Assembly: GCF_004014805.1 (NCBI RefSeq) | Contig: NZ_ATDN01000007.1 | Span: 62,001 to 126,000, forward strand | Source of the DNA: Mycolicibacterium elephantis DSM 44368 | GTDB taxonomy: Bacteria; Actinomycetota; Actinomycetes; Mycobacteriales; Mycobacteriaceae | Length of the DNA: 64,000 nucleotides | Reading direction: 5' to 3' | Shown: piece after piece, positions 52,899 to 59,271 of the stretch | Position numbering within the stretch: the first letter of the stretch is position 1 | Layout of the letters: each line of letters opens with the position of its first letter | Position numbers and translations under genes: made by a program | The notes under the pieces: generated by a model | What the model was told of the DNA's origin: nothing | The model's database searches: none | What the model saw: only the letters and a program-made list of their open reading frames with translations

Positions 52899-53411
52899 TC
52901 AGAAGTCGCCGGAGTTTCGGCGCAGCGTCTCGATGGAATCGGCCAGCGCGCGTGATTCGGCTTCGGACATCCCGATGTCGGCGAACACCTCCTTGTTGAG
53001 GGTCACCGTCGCGTCCTCCACGATCGAGCGGCCGAGATCGGTGATCCGCACCAGCGTGGTGCGGCCGTCGGTCGGATGGGGCGTCCGCTCCACCAGGCCG
53101 TCGGCCTCCAGGCGCCGGATCGCGTGGGTGACGCTGGTGACGTGCACCTGCAGCCGGTCGGAGGCCTTGGTGATCGGCAGTTCCCCGTTGCGGCTGAACG
53201 CCAGCAGCCGCAGCAGCTCGAACCGGGAAAAGCTCAGGTCGTACGGGCGCAGCGCGGTCTCCACCCGGGCCAGCAGGATCTGGTGCGCGCGCATCACCGA
53301 GGTCACCGCGACCATGCCGTCGGCGACGTCACCCCATCCCGCGCGCTCCCAGTTGGCGCGGGCCAGCGCGATGGGGTCGCGGTGGTCGGGGTGCGACGGT
53401 TCGGAGGCCAC
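52899..53411 (-). CDS. MarR-family transcriptional regulator (Rv0737-like)
   Basis: A 170-residue winged-helix regulator: LSFSRFELLRLLAFSRNGEL, the recognition helix region ASDRLQVHVTSVTHAIRRLE, and the wing ERTPHPTDGRTTLVRITDLG. In M. tuberculosis the MarR gene Rv0737 lies directly downstream of sigL-rslA; here the same type of gene is separated from rslA by a four-gene operon and follows its last gene by 41 bases on the same strand. It may therefore be the local regulator of that operon. Confidence 0.87.
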   Translation of the reverse strand: MASEPSHPDHRDPIALARANWERAGWGDVADGMVAVTSVMRAHQILLARVETALRPYDLSFSRFELLRLLAFSRNGELPITKASDRLQVHVTSVTHAIRRLEADGLVERTPHPTDGRTTLVRITDLGRSIVEDATVTLNKEVFADIGMSEAESRALADSIETLRRNSGDF

Positions 53412-53452: not shown

Positions 53453-54487
53453 TCAGCGCAGTGCGGCCGTCACCGCGGCCAGCACGGCGCGGGTGGCGCG
53501 GCGTTCGCCGACGGTGATGCGCACGCCGCCGTCGGCGTAGTGGCGCAGCCGCAGCCCCGTGTCGTCGAAAACCTCCGGCCACGGCCGGTCACGCTGTGGC
53601 AGGTACACGAAGTTGGCGTGGGCGTCGGTGCTGTACACCCCCATCGCGGCCAACCGCATCCGCAGATACCGGGTCTCGCTGGCGATCATCTGAATACGTT
53701 GCTGCAGTTCGGCTTCCGCCTCATAGGAGGCGGTGACGGCGGCCAACCCGGTGCCGGCGATGCCGAAAGGCAGTTGCATGCTCCACAGCCGGCGGGCCAG
53801 TTGCGGGGCGCAGAAGCCGTAGCCGATGCGCAGGCCGGCCAGGCCGTAGGCCTTCGAGAACGTGCGCACCACGACAAGATTCGGATACCGCGCGACCAGT
53901 TCCGCGGCGTCGAGTCGCGCCTCCGGCGGCAGGAACTCGACGTAGGCCTCGTCGAGCAGCACCACGGTCCCGGCCGGGACGCGCTTCAGGAACTCCTCGA
54001 TGTCGGACGCGGGCTCGATGGTGCCGGTCGGGTTGTGGGGCCGGCACAGCACCACCACCCGGGCGCCGGCGGCGGCACGCACCAACGCGTCCAGGTCGTG
54101 GCGGCCGTGGCCGTCGAGCGCCACCGTGGCCGAAGCCAGCCGGGCCATCTGGGCGAAGATCGGATATCCGTCGAACGTCGGATACGCCATCGCCAACGTC
54201 TCACCCGGGCGCGTCACCGCCTGCAGCACCTGCATGATCACGCCGGTGGCGCCGACGCCGACGACCACCTGTTCGGCGTGCACCCCGATGTGCGTGGCGA
54301 TCAGCGCGCGCAACTGCTGCGGCAGAAACTCCGGATAGCGGTTGGCGGTGTCCACCGACGCGTTCAACGCGGCCCGCACCGCGGGCAGCGGCGGAAACGG
54401 ATTCTCGTTGAGCGACAACGGGAACGGATCCAGTGCATCATGCAGAGCACCGGCGGGTTCGGGTACGTCGCGGTCCGGTGTGGTCAT
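53453..54487 (-). CDS. HisC-like class I/II PLP aminotransferase
   Basis: A 344-residue fold-type I aminotransferase related to histidinol-phosphate/aromatic aminotransferases: LSLNENPFPPLPAV, VVGVGATGVIMQVLQAVTRP, LCRPHNPTGTIEP, LLDEAYVEF and the PLP lysine in TFSKAYGLAGLRIGYGF. A pathway role in the adjacent operon is more likely than histidine synthesis, because no his genes are present. The ATG 54485-54487 overlaps the stop of the KAS III-like gene by one base. The amino acceptor is unknown. Confidence 0.87.
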   Translation of the reverse strand: MTTPDRDVPEPAGALHDALDPFPLSLNENPFPPLPAVRAALNASVDTANRYPEFLPQQLRALIATHIGVHAEQVVVGVGATGVIMQVLQAVTRPGETLAMAYPTFDGYPIFAQMARLASATVALDGHGRHDLDALVRAAAGARVVVLCRPHNPTGTIEPASDIEEFLKRVPAGTVVLLDEAYVEFLPPEARLDAAELVARYPNLVVVRTFSKAYGLAGLRIGYGFCAPQLARRLWSMQLPFGIAGTGLAAVTASYEAEAELQQRIQMIASETRYLRMRLAAMGVYSTDAHANFVYLPQRDRPWPEVFDDTGLRLRHYADGGVRITVGERRATRAVLAAVTAALR

Positions 54488-55494
54488 CAGCGACCGCCCC
54501 ATCGCACCGCGGCGGCTCCTGCGAAGTCGCCGGCATGGGCGAACGCCGCCATCATCACCACGTCACCCGCGTGCAACCGCCCCTCGGCGATCGCGTGGTC
54601 GAAGTTGATCGGAATACCCGCGGCGAACAGGTTTCCGCACTCATCGAACGTATCGACGTGGCGCTCCTTGGGCAGTTCGAGCGCCTCGCGCCAATTGCGC
54701 AGAAACACCCGGTTGGGCTGATTGGTGACGAGCAGGTCGAGATCCTTGGGTTTGACGCCGATCCGGTCGCACACCGCGTACGACACCTCGGGAACCTGAC
54801 GGTTGCCGCGGGCGAGCACCTTGGTGATCTTGCTTTCGGTGAACCCGATGTAGCCCTCGCCGGGCCCCGCCTGCCACCATTTGCGCGGCGGGCCCACCGC
54901 GATGGTCATGTCCCCGGCGAATTCACCGTAGGTGCGGCACTCGATGTCGAGGATCGGCGAGCGCTCCGACACCGCCACCAGGCCCACCGCGGCGCCGTCG
55001 CCGGGCACGGCCGCCTGCGCCTTGCGCCGCACCCTCGGCTGGTCGAACACCTGCCCCGCCGCGTTCTGCGCGACGGCGATCAACGCGGTCTGTCCGGCGC
55101 CCGACGCCAGCAGCTGACGCGCCACCTGCATGCCCAGGACGAACGCGGCGCAGCCGCCGTTGTGCAGGTCCAGCACCCAGTTGGGTTTCATGCCAAGGCG
55201 ATGCGCCATGGCCCCGCCGCCGCCGTAGAACGGCATGTCGGGTAACTGGGTGTGGGTGATCAACACGTCGACACCGGCGATCACGTCGGCGCCGTGGCGC
55301 TGCACCAGCCCGGCAGTGGCACGCTCGACCATGTCGACCGCGGTCTCGTCCGGCCCGACGTGGTGGCGAAAGCGCGGCGCACGGAACATCACGTTGTCCC
55401 GCAACGCATCCGACTCGGCGAACTGAGCGTAGTAGCTCGCACCGATCGGGTCACCCGGCAGGTAGGTGGAGACGTCGAGAAGGCTGACGGTCAT
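54487..55494 (-). CDS. KAS III-like thiolase-fold condensing enzyme
   Basis: A 335-residue thiolase-fold protein of the 3-oxoacyl-ACP synthase III group. The nucleophile Cys115 is in LHNGGCAAFVLGM and the oxyanion Asn288 in ECGNLFAAGIP. The canonical catalytic His of the HQAN motif is replaced: the sequence reads NQPN (258-261). The enzyme may therefore transfer an acyl group or condense without decarboxylation, rather than act as FabH. It lies seven bases after the SRPBCC gene and overlaps the aminotransferase by one base, in one operon. Confidence 0.85.
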   Translation of the reverse strand: MTVSLLDVSTYLPGDPIGASYYAQFAESDALRDNVMFRAPRFRHHVGPDETAVDMVERATAGLVQRHGADVIAGVDVLITHTQLPDMPFYGGGGAMAHRLGMKPNWVLDLHNGGCAAFVLGMQVARQLLASGAGQTALIAVAQNAAGQVFDQPRVRRKAQAAVPGDGAAVGLVAVSERSPILDIECRTYGEFAGDMTIAVGPPRKWWQAGPGEGYIGFTESKITKVLARGNRQVPEVSYAVCDRIGVKPKDLDLLVTNQPNRVFLRNWREALELPKERHVDTFDECGNLFAAGIPINFDHAIAEGRLHAGDVVMMAAFAHAGDFAGAAAVRWGGR

Positions 55495-55501
55495 GTGTGG
55501 G

Positions 55502-56167
55502 TCACCTCATCCAGTCGGGTGTCACGGGAAGCCCGTTGCGGTGGCGGTATTCGGCGATCGCCTTGAGGTTCTGCAACTCGAGCAGATGGCCCGCCCCGAA
55601 CATGTCCCAGAAGTCGCCGACCCACACGGGCCGTTGGGGCGGCGCGGTCTCCGGGTAGGGGTTTCGGTCGTAGAACGGGTGATGGCAGTTGGTCCACAGC
55701 ACCACCGACCCCGGCTTGTCGAACACCAACTGCGCGTCGACGATCCGCATCAGGTAGATCATCCACAGGTGCTTGCCCTGGTCCCATGCGCAGTGGTAGT
55801 CGACGGTCATCGCTTCCCTGTTGGCGTGCGTGCGGGTGAAGATCCGGGTCTCCGAGCCGAGCCGGTCGTAGGCGATCCAGAGCCCGGGTTCCTCGGTGGT
55901 GGTGAAGCCGCGCAGGCTGTAGGTCCACTCCTCGAGGCTGCGGGTGTCGGACATGTAGTCGAACAGCTCGCCTGGCGGACAGTCGATATAGCTGTTGACC
56001 GTGCAGAATTCGCCGAACACCTCATCGTGCGGATACACCGACCGCATCATCTCCATGATGATCGGGGTGGCCTTCTCCCGTGGTGACGTCTCGATGCGGA
56101 TGAGCCCGTCGAGCGGGTCGGTGGTGCCGCGGTGGCTGGTGATGTCATCAAGTGCGGGCAGCGACAT
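55502..56167 (-). CDS. SRPBCC (START-like) domain protein
   Basis: A 221-residue protein with a predicted SRPBCC/START-like fold: VNSYIDCPPGELFDYMSDTR followed by EEWTYSLRGF, strands ETRIFTRTHANREAMTVDYH, and a C-terminal helix. Related folds act as polyketide aromatase/cyclases or hydrophobic-ligand carriers; no catalytic residues can be assigned. The ATG 56165-56167 is chosen because AAGGAG lies eight bases upstream and longer forms show no similarity; it overlaps the TPP enzyme end by 20 bases. It belongs to the SigL-type operon. Confidence 0.7.
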   Translation of the reverse strand: MSLPALDDITSHRGTTDPLDGLIRIETSPREKATPIIMEMMRSVYPHDEVFGEFCTVNSYIDCPPGELFDYMSDTRSLEEWTYSLRGFTTTEEPGLWIAYDRLGSETRIFTRTHANREAMTVDYHCAWDQGKHLWMIYLMRIVDAQLVFDKPGSVVLWTNCHHPFYDRNPYPETAPPQRPVWVGDFWDMFGAGHLLELQNLKAIAEYRHRNGLPVTPDWMR

Positions 56168-57845
56168 GGGATCTGTTCTCCTTCGTGCGAACGCGGTCTG
56201 AGGTGAGAAACGCGGCGAACGGCGGGATTTCGTCTGCCGAGCATTCGACGCTGACAACTGCGGGACCGTCGTGGGCCAGCGCGGCTTCCACCGCCGCGGG
56301 CAGGTGATCGAGGTCGTCGACGTCGATCGCAGGCAGCCCGGGGAACATCGCGGCCAGCCCGGCTCCGAGCCGGCTGGGACCGAACCGGTTGTAGCTGTAG
56401 CGGTCGCCGTAGAAGAGCTGTTCGCGGGTCACGCACATCGCGTGCGCGTGGTTGTCGAACAGCAGGAACGTCAGGGGCAGCCGATACTGCAGTGCGGTGT
56501 GAATCTCCATGCCGTGCATGAAGAACGCGCCGTCGCCGGCGATCACGACCGTGCGTCGGCGCCGTCGGAACGCCATGCCCACACCGGCTCCGAAGCTGTA
56601 GCCCATCCCGCCCATGCCGAGAGCGACGAGGTATCTGCCGTCGCGCCGCGCCGGCAGGCGGTGGATCGCCGACGCGCCGATGTTTCCGGCGTCGACGACG
56701 ATGTCGACGCCGTCGGGCAGCGCGTCGTCCAGCACCGCCATCGCGTCGCGGTACCGGATCCCCGGGCCGTCGTGGGGTGGTGGCTGAAGGCTGGTGCCCG
56801 GCACCGCATCCGGCACTCGCACCCCCGTGGCGCGGCCGTTGCCCGTCAGGGCCGCGATCAACAGTGTCAGCGAGCCACGCAGGTCGTCGGTGTGCACGTG
56901 GGTGCATGGCAGGTGCGGCGGAAGGGATCCGATCGAGTACACGGGCGTCGCCGCCAGCGCCGCGTCCAGGCCGGCGCGCGCGGTCACCGTCATGCGGGTA
57001 CCCACCAGCAGGCAGAGCGCACTGGCCGAAACGGCTGCGGCGACACCGGGATGCCCCATCACTCCGGTCACACCGAGCGACGACGACGATCCGGAACCCG
57101 GCGTGCCCGCCACGTCCTTGGCGTCCGGCACACACGCCACCCGGGCCCGCACCAGGGCGCGCAATCGTTCGAGTTCGGCGCGCGCATCGTCACGGGCGAT
57201 TTGTTCGCCGGCGATGATCGTCACCGGCCCGTCGGCGCGCCGCAACGCACGCACGATCGGGTGCGGGTTGCCGAGCTGGCCGGCCGGTTCTTCGGACACC
57301 TCGATCCCGCCGTTTACCGGCACCGGGGCCTGTTGAATATCCTTGGGCAGCAACAGCACTGCCGGCCCACGCGCCGTCTTCGCCGCGGCGATCGCCTCGG
57401 GCAGCGCCGAGACGATGTCGGCCGGGTTCAGCAAGCGCCGGCAGTACACCGCCACCGCGGAGAACAGCGCCTGCCCGTCGAGCGCGCCGTTGCGGCCGCT
57501 GGTGTCCTGGAACGCCCCACGCCCGTCGAGCGTCGTCGGCGCCTGCCCGATCAGCGCCAGCACCGGCACCCGGCTGGCGAACGCCTCCCCCAGCCCGGGC
57601 AGCGTGTTCAGGCAGCCGCCGCCCGAGGTGGCGACCAGCACGCCCAGGCCGGCGCCGCTGCGGCTGTATCCGTCGGCCATCGTGGCGGCCGAGAACTCGT
57701 GCTTGGCCAGCACCGCGGTGATCCCGTCACAGAAGTGCGCGGCGTCGTAGAGGTCCTCGATGTTGGCGCCGTCGACCCCGAAGAGATGCTCGACGCCGAC
57801 CGCCGCGAGGTATTCGACGATGTGGTCGACCACTCGATGGGCCAT
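56148..57845 (-). CDS. Thiamine-diphosphate-dependent enzyme (acetolactate-synthase-like)
   Basis: A 565-residue TPP enzyme with the three domains of the acetolactate synthase/benzoylformate decarboxylase superfamily. Catalytic Glu50 is in AVLAKHEFSAATMADGYSR; the TPP/metal motif is GDGAFFMHG with LFDNHAHAM closing it. It probably decarboxylates a 2-oxo acid and transfers the resulting acyl anion. No regulatory ALS subunit is adjacent, so housekeeping acetolactate synthesis is unlikely. It is the first gene of the operon, 26 or so bases behind a predicted SigL-type start site. Confidence 0.87.
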   Translation of the reverse strand: MAHRVVDHIVEYLAAVGVEHLFGVDGANIEDLYDAAHFCDGITAVLAKHEFSAATMADGYSRSGAGLGVLVATSGGGCLNTLPGLGEAFASRVPVLALIGQAPTTLDGRGAFQDTSGRNGALDGQALFSAVAVYCRRLLNPADIVSALPEAIAAAKTARGPAVLLLPKDIQQAPVPVNGGIEVSEEPAGQLGNPHPIVRALRRADGPVTIIAGEQIARDDARAELERLRALVRARVACVPDAKDVAGTPGSGSSSSLGVTGVMGHPGVAAAVSASALCLLVGTRMTVTARAGLDAALAATPVYSIGSLPPHLPCTHVHTDDLRGSLTLLIAALTGNGRATGVRVPDAVPGTSLQPPPHDGPGIRYRDAMAVLDDALPDGVDIVVDAGNIGASAIHRLPARRDGRYLVALGMGGMGYSFGAGVGMAFRRRRRTVVIAGDGAFFMHGMEIHTALQYRLPLTFLLFDNHAHAMCVTREQLFYGDRYSYNRFGPSRLGAGLAAMFPGLPAIDVDDLDHLPAAVEAALAHDGPAVVSVECSADEIPPFAAFLTSDRVRTKENRSHVAART

Positions 57846-57877
57846 GGCTCACCTGCCTTCGCGCGCCTTACCCCCGT

Positions 57878-57905
57878 GATACGACGCGCTGCGCAGTTGG
57901 GTTCA
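57878..57905 (-). promoter_or_regulatory. SigL-type promoter (TGAACC-N16-CGTATC) of the TPP operon
   Basis: On the minus strand TGAACC (57900-57905) is followed after exactly 16 bases by CGTATC (57878-57883). This matches the published mycobacterial SigL consensus (TGAACC, 16-18 bases, CGT...) and the promoter upstream of sigL itself in sequence and spacing. It lies in the 74-base gap between rslA and the TPP gene. Confidence 0.72.
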
Positions 57906-57919
57906 ACGAGCGGCGGAAT

Positions 57920-58639
57920 TCACAGTTCGCGCTCGAGCAGCACCTGCCCGGAGTCAGCCGAAACCAGTTGCACGGCAGCGATTTCATCGACCTGCACCGG
58001 GGTGTTCGCGCTCGGCAGGGCGGTGGCGCCGGACAGCCCCAGCCAGGTGGCGACCTGCTCGCGGCTGCCGTCGCGGCCGATGACCACCATGCCGAGGTTC
58101 TGCGGCGGGGCGTCACGCTGACCCCAGTCGCCGTAGGTGCAGGCCATGTCGATCCGGCTGCCCCAGCCGTAACCGGTGACGGTGATGGTGGCGTTGATCG
58201 GTGTATCGGACATCTTGGCCATTTCGAGCTGTTGGCCGGTGGCCTGCGGCGCGGGGGTCTGGGTGCCCAGGCTGTCGGGGCGCAGCACCAGCACGAGCCC
58301 GAGGGCCAACAGCGCGGCGGCCATCGCGACCGCGGCGGTGGTCATCCAGCGGGTGCGCCTGCGCCGGGCAGCCACCTTGTCCAGCAGGTTGTCGAGCACC
58401 TCGGGGCGCAGCGCGGGCGGGTCCGGCTGGTCGAGCCCGGCGACGTCGTCGGCGTCGACCTTGGCCAGCAGCGCGGGGATTCCGCTCAGTTCGGCGACCG
58501 CGGCCCGGCACTGTGCGCAGGTCTGCAGGTGCGCCTCGTATTCGCGGCGCTCGTCGCCGGAGAGCGAGCCAAGCACGTAGGCGGCGTCCCAGGTGACGTA
58601 GCGGTCGTCATCGCCTCGGGGGGAACCGAACTCGGTCAT
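57920..58639 (-). CDS. rslA: Zinc-binding anti-sigma factor RslA
   Basis: A 239-residue membrane anti-sigma factor. The cytoplasmic zinc-binding domain has His37, Cys41 and Cys44 (HLQTCAQC). A single membrane helix (TTAAVAMAAALLALGLVLVL) is followed by an extracytoplasmic RskA-type C-terminal domain of about 120 residues. In M. tuberculosis RslA (Rv0736) releases SigL on oxidation of the zinc cysteines. It overlaps sigL by four bases. Confidence 0.92.
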   Translation of the reverse strand: MTEFGSPRGDDDRYVTWDAAYVLGSLSGDERREYEAHLQTCAQCRAAVAELSGIPALLAKVDADDVAGLDQPDPPALRPEVLDNLLDKVAARRRRTRWMTTAAVAMAAALLALGLVLVLRPDSLGTQTPAPQATGQQLEMAKMSDTPINATITVTGYGWGSRIDMACTYGDWGQRDAPPQNLGMVVIGRDGSREQVATWLGLSGATALPSANTPVQVDEIAAVQLVSADSGQVLLEREL

Positions 58640-59160
58640 CGCGTCACCCCCATCTCCTGCAGCCTGAGCCGCAGCGCGCGCACCCCGTAGTGCAGCCGCG
58701 ACTTCACGGTGCCCTCGGCGATCTGCAGATCGGCGGCGATCTGCGCGGTGGTCCAGCCCTGGTAGTAGGCGCGGCGGATGACCGCCCGATGTTCTTCGGA
58801 CAGTTCGCGAATGGCCTCACCCAGCAACATTCGGTCCAGTGCCGTCTCCACCTCGTCGGGCCCAGCGCGGTCGGCCGCCTTCTCCATGTCCGGGGTGCCG
58901 GTTTCGCTGCGGAACCGGGCGCTGCGCCGCTCGTCGATAACGAGATTACGCGCCACCGTGAACAACCACGCCCGTGCCGATCGCTCGCTGTCGGCGGTCA
59001 CCTCGGGATGGCGCCAAGCACGCAACAGCGTTTCCTGCACGACATCCTCCGCACGGGCCGTATCCCCCGTCAGCCGCACGGCATAGCGCCAGATGGCCGC
59101 GGCATGCTCGTCGTAGAGCACCCGCATGACTTTGGCATCCAGGGCCTCCGGGTCGTCCAA
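58636..59160 (-). CDS. sigL: ECF sigma factor SigL
   Basis: A group IV sigma factor of about 174 residues. Region 2 is LYDEHAAAIWRYAVRLTGDT with EDVVQETLLRAWRHP and ARAWLFTVARNLVIDERRSA; region 4 is LSEEHRAVIRRAYYQGWTTA and GTVKSRLHYGVRALRLRLQE. It is colinear with M. tuberculosis SigL (Rv0735), and the map-sigL-rslA order is the same. The start is taken as TTG 59158-59160, six bases after GGAGG; TTG 59166 directly abuts that site. It is preceded by its own SigL-type promoter. Confidence 0.92.
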   Translation of the reverse strand: MDDPEALDAKVMRVLYDEHAAAIWRYAVRLTGDTARAEDVVQETLLRAWRHPEVTADSERSARAWLFTVARNLVIDERRSARFRSETGTPDMEKAADRAGPDEVETALDRMLLGEAIRELSEEHRAVIRRAYYQGWTTAQIAADLQIAEGTVKSRLHYGVRALRLRLQEMGVTR

Positions 59161-59177
59161 ACTCAACCTCCATCAGT

Positions 59178-59205
59178 AATACGAGGTTGGCGGCCATCCG
59201 GTTCA
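59178..59205 (-). promoter_or_regulatory. SigL-type autoregulatory promoter (TGAACC-N16-CGTATT)
   Basis: On the minus strand TGAACC (59200-59205), 16 bases, CGTATT (59178-59183). This fits the SigL consensus and would start transcription just upstream of the sigL ribosome-binding site, as expected for the known autoregulation of sigL-rslA. Confidence 0.75.
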
Positions 59206-59213
59206 GTATTCGC

Positions 59214-59271
59214 CGAACGTGGGTTACCCGCACGCTCCGAGCGCTCGAGGCGTGCGGGTAACCCACGTTCG
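59214..59271. repeat. 58-base near-perfect palindrome between map and sigL
   Basis: Arms CGAACGTGGGTTACCCGCACGC (59214-59235, given here as an inverted repeat with 59250-59271) match over 22 bases without mismatch, and the 14-base loop contains the palindrome CGAGCGCTCG. A run of six A follows on the plus strand, before map. It could terminate the secY-adk-map transcript or be a dispersed palindromic element. Confidence 0.7.

Follow-up and report, generated by a model that had tools for sequence, protein, structure and literature searches.

The DNA examined here, referred to as the window, is a 64,000-nucleotide stretch of the Mycolicibacterium elephantis DSM 44368 genome (assembly GCF_004014805.1, contig NZ_ATDN01000007.1, positions 62,001 to 126,000 of the forward strand), and the subject of this analysis is a compact operon of four minus-strand genes that appears to encode relatives of the carbazole assembly line of Streptomyces. 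In the direction of transcription, these genes encode a CqsB3-like thiamine diphosphate (ThDP) enzyme (window positions 56148–57845; Pfam TPP_enzyme N, M, and C), a CqsB2-like SRPBCC (Bet v1-like) protein that is predicted to be a ring-closing enzyme (55502–56167), a CqsB1-like enzyme related to 3-oxoacyl-acyl carrier protein (ACP) synthase III (KASIII; 54487–55494; ACP_syn_III), and a CqsB7-like pyridoxal phosphate (PLP) aminotransferase (AT; 53453–54502; Aminotran_1_2). The SRPBCC and ThDP genes share 20 bp, 7 bp separate the SRPBCC gene from the KASIII-like gene, and the AT gene overlaps the latter by 16 bp, or may begin at an alternative start at 54484, where an ATG overlaps the KASIII stop codon. 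A MarR regulator gene (52899–53411, minus strand; MarR Pfam match), presumed from its position to be the orthologue of Rv0737, lies 41 bp beyond the AT gene.

Upstream of the operon on the same strand are rslA (57920–58639), encoding a zinc-type anti-sigma factor with a zf-HC2 match and an HxxxCxxC motif (HLQTCAQC) in its translation, and sigL (58636–59166), encoding an extracytoplasmic function (ECF) sigma factor with Sigma70_r2 and Sigma70_r4 matches and a score above the NF007227 cut-off. Two minus-strand SigL-type promoters of the form TGAACC-N16-CGTAT precede the operon (57879–57905) and sigL (59179–59205), and the GC content of the operon is about that of its flanks in the window. An earlier note on this DNA had described four tightly coupled genes situated between rslA and a MarR gene, and all of these open reading frames were confirmed. 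The enzyme families named in that note also agree with our assignments, which come from Pfam for the TPP, KASIII-like, PLP aminotransferase, and MarR proteins and from sequence and structure matches to the PDB for the SRPBCC protein.

The SRPBCC protein matched no Pfam or NCBIfam model. Its sole sequence match among 177,635 distinct PDB sequences was CqsB2 (6ipv; E 2.3e-46), which serves as carbazole synthase in the carquinostatin pathway. An AlphaFold model was built from 37 mycobacterial sequences (mean predicted local distance difference test score [pLDDT] 77.5; predicted TM-score [pTM] 0.79), and a Foldseek comparison with the PDB placed CqsB2 first (E 3.7e-18, 40% identity), ahead of plant abscisic acid receptors (E 2.2e-6). 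Five CqsB2 residues have been given proposed catalytic roles (PMC7466098), of which the window protein keeps four (Tyr144, Tyr172, His206, and Glu209) and carries Asp in place of the fifth, Glu105. The cyclase motifs LEEWTYS, CAWDQG, and WTNC of CqsB2 are likewise kept. By homology, we predict that the SRPBCC protein is a ring-closing enzyme of the CqsB2 type, the carbazole synthase of the CqsB/Nzs core pathway.

Loci recovered by genome searches (denoted by L numbers) include four of the carquinostatin kind, L161 to L164, from genomes assigned by inference to Streptomyces, which we call type I to distinguish them from the window kind, type II. The cyclases of L162 and L164 are 98% identical to CqsB2 residues 40–223 (82% for L161, 71% for L163), and both loci also hold ThDP, KASIII, and AT homologues. 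The gene content of L162, with KASIII, SRPBCC, and ThDP enzymes, a squalene/phytoene-synthase-type prenyltransferase, a second KASIII, an ACP, an aminotransferase, and a NUDIX protein, matches that of cqsB1–B8 as reviewed. Among 27 aligned type II cyclase rows (window included; L118 and L136 represent one place), Tyr144, His206, and Glu209 are kept in all, and Tyr172 is kept in all except the degenerate L062. The position of Glu105 is Asp in 26 of these rows and Glu in L128.

The ThDP enzyme is contiguous with the SRPBCC gene, as expected of an adjoining CqsB3-type enzyme, and is 34% identical to its counterpart in L162. Its best PDB relatives are BbmA (E 1e-47; the BpmA of the literature is taken here to be this protein) and CsmA (E 5e-46), and it has no near copy among the other ThDP enzymes of the genome, the best-scoring of which is 27% identical. 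The KASIII-like enzyme retains Cys115 and Asn288 and carries Asn258 at the position of the HQAN histidine, and therefore does not show the Cys-His-Asn triad of a CqsB1-type KASIII. This substitution marks the whole kind, given that every one of the 28 type II rows has Asn at the position and each of the 4 type I rows has His, and a motif scan of 134 KASIII-like proteins found Asn in all 108 that were readable (26 were not). Housekeeping identities were also considered for these proteins and rejected. Acetolactate synthase, FabH, and HisC all failed because the window proteins score under the NCBIfam cut-offs, with 93.6 bits against 292.1 for FabH, where the triad histidine is also replaced, and 241.1 bits against 276.55 for HisC (TIGR01141).

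Phylogenetic trees place the window KASIII-like enzyme and cyclase beside, but not within, the carquinostatin kind. In a KASIII tree of 37 rows, comprising only type I, type II, and five FabH-type rows, type I and type II each form one group (Shimodaira–Hasegawa-like approximate likelihood ratio test [SH-aLRT] support of 99 and 96, respectively) and together are split from the FabH-type rows with support of 100. A cyclase tree of 33 rows likewise separates type I from type II (SH-aLRT 100). Note that both were quick trees with SH-aLRT support only, for which the program warned of long branches. Judged by these sequence relationships, the four-gene set is a clade apart from the known carbazole clusters.

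In a tree of 23 rows, the window AT falls within a group of 19 that contains the AT rows of L161, L162, and L164 (SH-aLRT 99), as expected of a CqsB7-type aminotransferase, and this group excludes the separate Pat-like (34%) and HisC-like (33%) enzymes of the same genome, whose names are presumed, as well as the aminotransferases from L163 and L173. CqsB7 converts Trp to indolepyruvate in the opening step of carquinostatin biosynthesis (PMC7466098). The grouping provides the best evidence that the AT may supply an aromatic 2-oxo acid to the pathway, and it favors transamination as the first step rather than the last because the window enzyme groups with those in the CqsB7 position.

Within the genus, 203 of 297 genomes have an SRPBCC match at E ≤ 0.001, a few of these matches being weak or diverged. 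Wider sampling gave matches in 38 of 348 genomes from the order, spread over 7 of 79 genera, and in 14 of 396 from the phylum, where they fall in 4 of 236 genera. To describe gene neighborhoods we used the best 80 of 313 confirmed KASIII matches (L003–L082), which, having been chosen in this way, are all from Mycobacteriaceae and are not a random sample. Failure of the genes to co-occur had been named by the earlier note as grounds for abandoning the operon. Where flanks were long enough, the ThDP gene was found near the KASIII gene in 77 of 77 loci, the SRPBCC gene in 78 of 78, and an AT gene, complete or partial, in 78 of 78, accompanied by MarR (71/77), RslA (71/77), and SigL (64/75). The operon is therefore real and conserved. 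No carbazole-type pathway for mycobacteria was reported among the papers listed by the literature searches, which agrees with the suggestion that a co-inherited biosynthetic operon had gone undescribed. When SRPBCC relatives served as anchors (81 loci, L083–L138 and L150–L174, some of which repeat one place), ThDP and KASIII genes were both present within 1.2 kb in 79; within this distance L132 lacks the KASIII gene and L128 lacks both. Long open frames suggested fusion of the SRPBCC protein to its neighbors, a candidate that was rejected because the ThDP, SRPBCC, and KASIII genes of L125, L126, L127, L129, and L130 lie in three different frames.

Sets related to that of the window extend beyond mycobacteria. 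SRPBCC relatives are present in 24 of 295 genomes assigned by inference to Streptomyces, and nine loci in this group (L139 and L165–L172) hold a compact type II set in the order regulator, ThDP, SRPBCC, and KASIII, wherein the regulator has DJ-1/PfpI and AraC domains (Pfam assignment made for L168). An AT gene follows in full in L165 and L168–L171 and in part in L167 and L172, with no match in L139 or L166; the five complete examples constitute an uncharacterized carbazole-like operon in these presumptive Streptomyces. An ACP gene lies near the sets of L126 and L127, from a family presumed to be Pseudonocardiaceae. Another genus (g2) of the window's family has a set of this kind too, in most cases with a SigL-type site. 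The earlier note had the four genes inserted between rslA and the MarR gene, which are neighbors in M. tuberculosis (PMC13002591). The position holds, while insertion is doubtful: given the set in this second genus, loss from M. tuberculosis is the likelier reading of its absence there.

Some loci carry further genes beside the set. Eight of the 80 named loci (L071, L072, L075, L077, and L079–L082), including those of M. nebraskense and M. colombiense, have an adjoining PF00891 O-methyltransferase gene; FAD (flavin adenine dinucleotide) oxygenase-type genes occur in an overlapping group, and L047 and L066 have a cytochrome P450 gene and a PF01596 methyltransferase gene (these Pfam assignments were run on members from L071 and L066). 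Such oxidoreductase and methyltransferase neighbors suit a hydroxylated aromatic product. None is present at the window locus, and a single search of the window genome for the L071-type O-methyltransferase gave no match, a blank result that alone proves nothing. Some mycobacteria carry second ThDP-SRPBCC-KASIII copies (L096, L106, L140, and L141) with a diverged KASIII-like enzyme (66% in L096 and L106) and no AT match, one of which (L141) has a methyltransferase gene near by; these perhaps make a second product.

Conservation of the promoter was assessed with the motif TGAAC[CT]-N15-17-CGT[AG]T within 200 bp upstream of a gene. Of the 77 loci that could be tested (3 of the 80 could not), 72 have it ahead of the ThDP gene, with a spacer of 16 bases in 71 and 17 in one, against a chance expectation of 0.012 per 200 bases. 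Ahead of sigL the motif is present at 62 of 68 testable loci, and it is found upstream of none of 359 control genes (MarR 0/63, Map 0/64, RslA 0/73, KASIII 0/80, and AT 0/79). It is kept in L062, L078, L080, and L082, where no RslA match lies near the ThDP gene. Spacer sequences vary between species and both boxes are constant, a pattern that suggests selection on the motif. The SigL-type promoter that had been read at the start of the operon is thus conserved across species, and the operon is probably SigL-driven. Using a looser motif (TGAAC[CT]-N16-CGT within 300 bp), we found sites in five of the six testable loci from genus g2, about 80 bp upstream in three and 279 bp in two (missing in L132), and in none of the four loci of g4 and g5 nor in L126 or L127.

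The sequence TGAACY-N16-CGTRT occurs at eight sites in the window genome, compared with one for a reversed control. Three are of the exact form TGAACC-N16-CGTAT, two of them at this locus and the third (C12:128939) a short distance ahead of a type III polyketide synthase gene (L146). The latter is likely to be a pks10-like target of SigL, and the site fits the reported up-regulation of pks10 by SigL in M. tuberculosis (PMC13002591, citing Hahn 2005). RslA of M. tuberculosis is described as a redox-responsive zinc switch that, when oxidized, loses zinc and binds SigL more weakly (PMC2877774), and SigL would accordingly be expected to induce the operon upon oxidative release from RslA. Rv0737 and its M. 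smegmatis homologue Ms_1492, which sits in a separate gene cluster in that species, bind the promoter of sigL-rslA, whose expression they reportedly increase (PMC13002591); the MarR protein encoded downstream of the operon may therefore close a regulatory loop. Other arrangements of the regulatory genes were observed in L071, L072, L075, L079, and L081, where an RslA-like gene directly precedes the ThDP gene and no SigL-like gene adjoins it. In L081, another RslA-like gene is found next to sigL at a greater distance upstream. Between map and sigL of the window (59214–59271) lies a 29-nucleotide inverted repeat, 93% complementary and without a spacer, that is a dispersed element resembling repetitive extragenic palindromes. 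A 17-base piece of its arm has 12 exact copies in the genome and 30 with two or fewer mismatches (two for a reversed control).

From the observed kinship of the enzymes, the residues they keep, the order of their genes, and the preserved promoter, we consider there to be a reasonably good chance that the four genes are relatives of the Streptomyces carbazole assembly line that convert an aromatic amino acid, probably tryptophan, to a new aromatic ring compound. The enzymes would act in the order AT, ThDP enzyme, KASIII-like enzyme, and SRPBCC cyclase, and we infer every reaction, substrate, and product from the steps of CqsB7, B3, B1, and B2 as reviewed in PMC7466098. The AT would transaminate Trp to indolepyruvate, which the ThDP enzyme would couple with a second 2-oxo acid, such as pyruvate, to form an unstable α-hydroxy-β-keto acid. 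Cys115 of the KASIII-like enzyme would then be acylated and the acyl group condensed with this product with loss of CO2. With no ACP gene beside the operon, the acyl donor would be a carrier of primary metabolism. Finally, the SRPBCC protein would close and aromatize ring A without a cofactor, yielding a carbazole-type catechol or o-quinone with an alkyl tail.

Several observations weigh against this scheme or against the regulation proposed for it. The overlay of the SRPBCC model on CqsB2 is imperfect (TM-score 0.66, root mean square deviation 17.2), and two stretches of the model have pLDDT values below 50. Identities to the L162 proteins are modest (ThDP 34%, SRPBCC 41%, KASIII 27%, and AT 40%). 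The histidine of the CqsB1-position and FabH enzymes is missing from the window KASIII-like enzyme, so the textbook triad cannot serve the condensation step. Among the open reading frames of the window, no ACP, second KASIII, prenyltransferase, or oxygenase gene neighbors the operon, whereas L162 holds both the dedicated ACP and the second KASIII (B6 and B5). No residue that discriminates indole from phenyl was identified, and the tryptophan assignment consequently rests on CqsB7. The AT gene is fragmentary in L042, L074, and L082 although their flanks are long enough, and the enzyme may perhaps be replaceable there; in L074 (M. houstonense), pieces of the ThDP and AT genes are interleaved. 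As for the promoter, the strict motif is lacking before the ThDP genes of L017, L047, L066, L070, and L074 (L017 and L070 have near-matches) and before the second copies L140 and L141, and the looser motif was found in none of 15 presumptive Streptomyces loci.

These points leave room for other chemistry. The same assembly line could act on Phe or Tyr, with the cyclase forming a naphthalene-type or other carbocyclic ring rather than a carbazole, and phenylalanine remains a candidate substrate because the best PDB match of the AT is the putative phenylalanine aminotransferase 4r2n of M. tuberculosis. The window kind is also its own clade with distinct KASIII and cyclase residues, and the related CybE/CybF pair is reported to accept an indole substrate very poorly (PMC12395478). 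We nevertheless regard this alternative as unlikely, given that the AT groups with enzymes in the position of CqsB7, which acts on Trp, rather than with the Pat-like enzyme, that much of the CqsB2 sequence, including its motifs, is preserved, and that a benzene ring would be expected to be a poorer nucleophile than indole for ring closure.

Two further pathways would make no such ring. The operon could encode synthesis of a furanolide lactone, wherein the ThDP and KASIII-like enzymes form a butenolide and the SRPBCC protein is a helper. Cyanobacterin CybE, a ThDP enzyme, and CybF, a 3-oxoacyl-ACP synthase homologue, are described as building furanolides without the canonical KASIII reaction (PMC8777810 and PMC12395478), and the best PDB relatives of the window ThDP enzyme are CybE homologues (PMC12395478). 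This route is improbable: the key enzymes named in those reports (CybC, E, F, and G) include no SRPBCC protein, whereas a CqsB2-like gene adjoins the KASIII gene in all 78 testable loci, and the operon holds no coenzyme A (CoA) ligase or ammonia-lyase gene. The earlier note had proposed that a ThDP-generated acyl anion and KASIII transfer are followed by transamination to give an amino-ketone or amino-acyl product, for which all of the enzyme classes are present and coupled. We consider that order and product very improbable. They offer no matching role for the CqsB2-like protein, whose presence makes an aromatic ring compound the likelier product, and the AT groups with the enzyme that feeds the carbazole pathway at its first step. 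In addition, no AT gene was found beside four copies of the set in other genera (L125, L126, L127, and L133), which counts against the carbazole scheme as well but fits the AT as a precursor supplier better than as a final step.

The most likely chemistry of this operon is thus that of a variant carbazole assembly line rather than of an amino-ketone pathway. If this is correct, an alkaloid pathway that has gone unreported is carried by a large part of Mycobacterium, in many cases at a constant position next to a sigma factor under redox control, and SigL gains a concrete metabolic output with a measurable product. A natural KASIII-like family with a replaced catalytic histidine would offer a direct test of the carbazole ketosynthase mechanism, and reconstitution in vitro should be easy with four enzymes and no dedicated carriers. 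Known carbazoles have radical-scavenger activity. A bolder proposal, which we offer tentatively and would not expect to hold in every part, is that mycobacteria and their relatives possess a second carbazole branch, in which a Cys-Asn-Asn ketosynthase takes its acyl chain from primary lipid metabolism to make a lipid-tailed, redox-active carbazole (a catechol or o-quinone). SigL would turn on its synthesis when oxidants disarm RslA, and the product might serve the genus as a built-in lipophilic antioxidant or redox signal that was lost from M. tuberculosis.

Compared with known systems, the window proteins share superfamily folds with FabH, HisC/Pat, and acetolactate synthase and fall below every NCBIfam cut-off of the models shown. 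The furanolide system of cyanobacterin has in common with the operon a ThDP acyloin enzyme and a KASIII-like enzyme that joins an acyl-CoA, and differs in its supply by CoA ligase and ammonia lyase and in that the key enzymes reported for it include no SRPBCC cyclase. Closer, by description, is the chlocarbazomycin (chlCz) cluster of S. tubbatahanensis, which likewise includes an aminotransferase, a ThDP enzyme, a KASIII, and an SRPBCC carbazole synthase, and adds an ACP, FAD oxidases, and short-chain dehydrogenases/reductases (PMC10100901). The carquinostatin (cqsB) and neocarazostatin (nzs) clusters of Streptomyces differ from the window set in several respects: the latter forms a separate clade in the KASIII and cyclase trees, has Asn for His in the KASIII-like enzyme and Asp for Glu105 in the cyclase, follows the order TPP-SRPBCC-KAS-AT behind a SigL-type promoter, and has no adjoining ACP, second KASIII, prenyltransferase, or NUDIX/isopentenyl diphosphate isomerase gene. 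Because the KASIII-like enzyme lacks the full triad and no dedicated ACP or second KASIII adjoins the set, the operon should be kept apart from carquinostatin-type clusters. Even so, with homologues of all four core enzymes, a T[H/N]QPN motif in the KASIII-like enzyme, and four of the five cyclase residues with proposed roles in common, it would by homology work like one.

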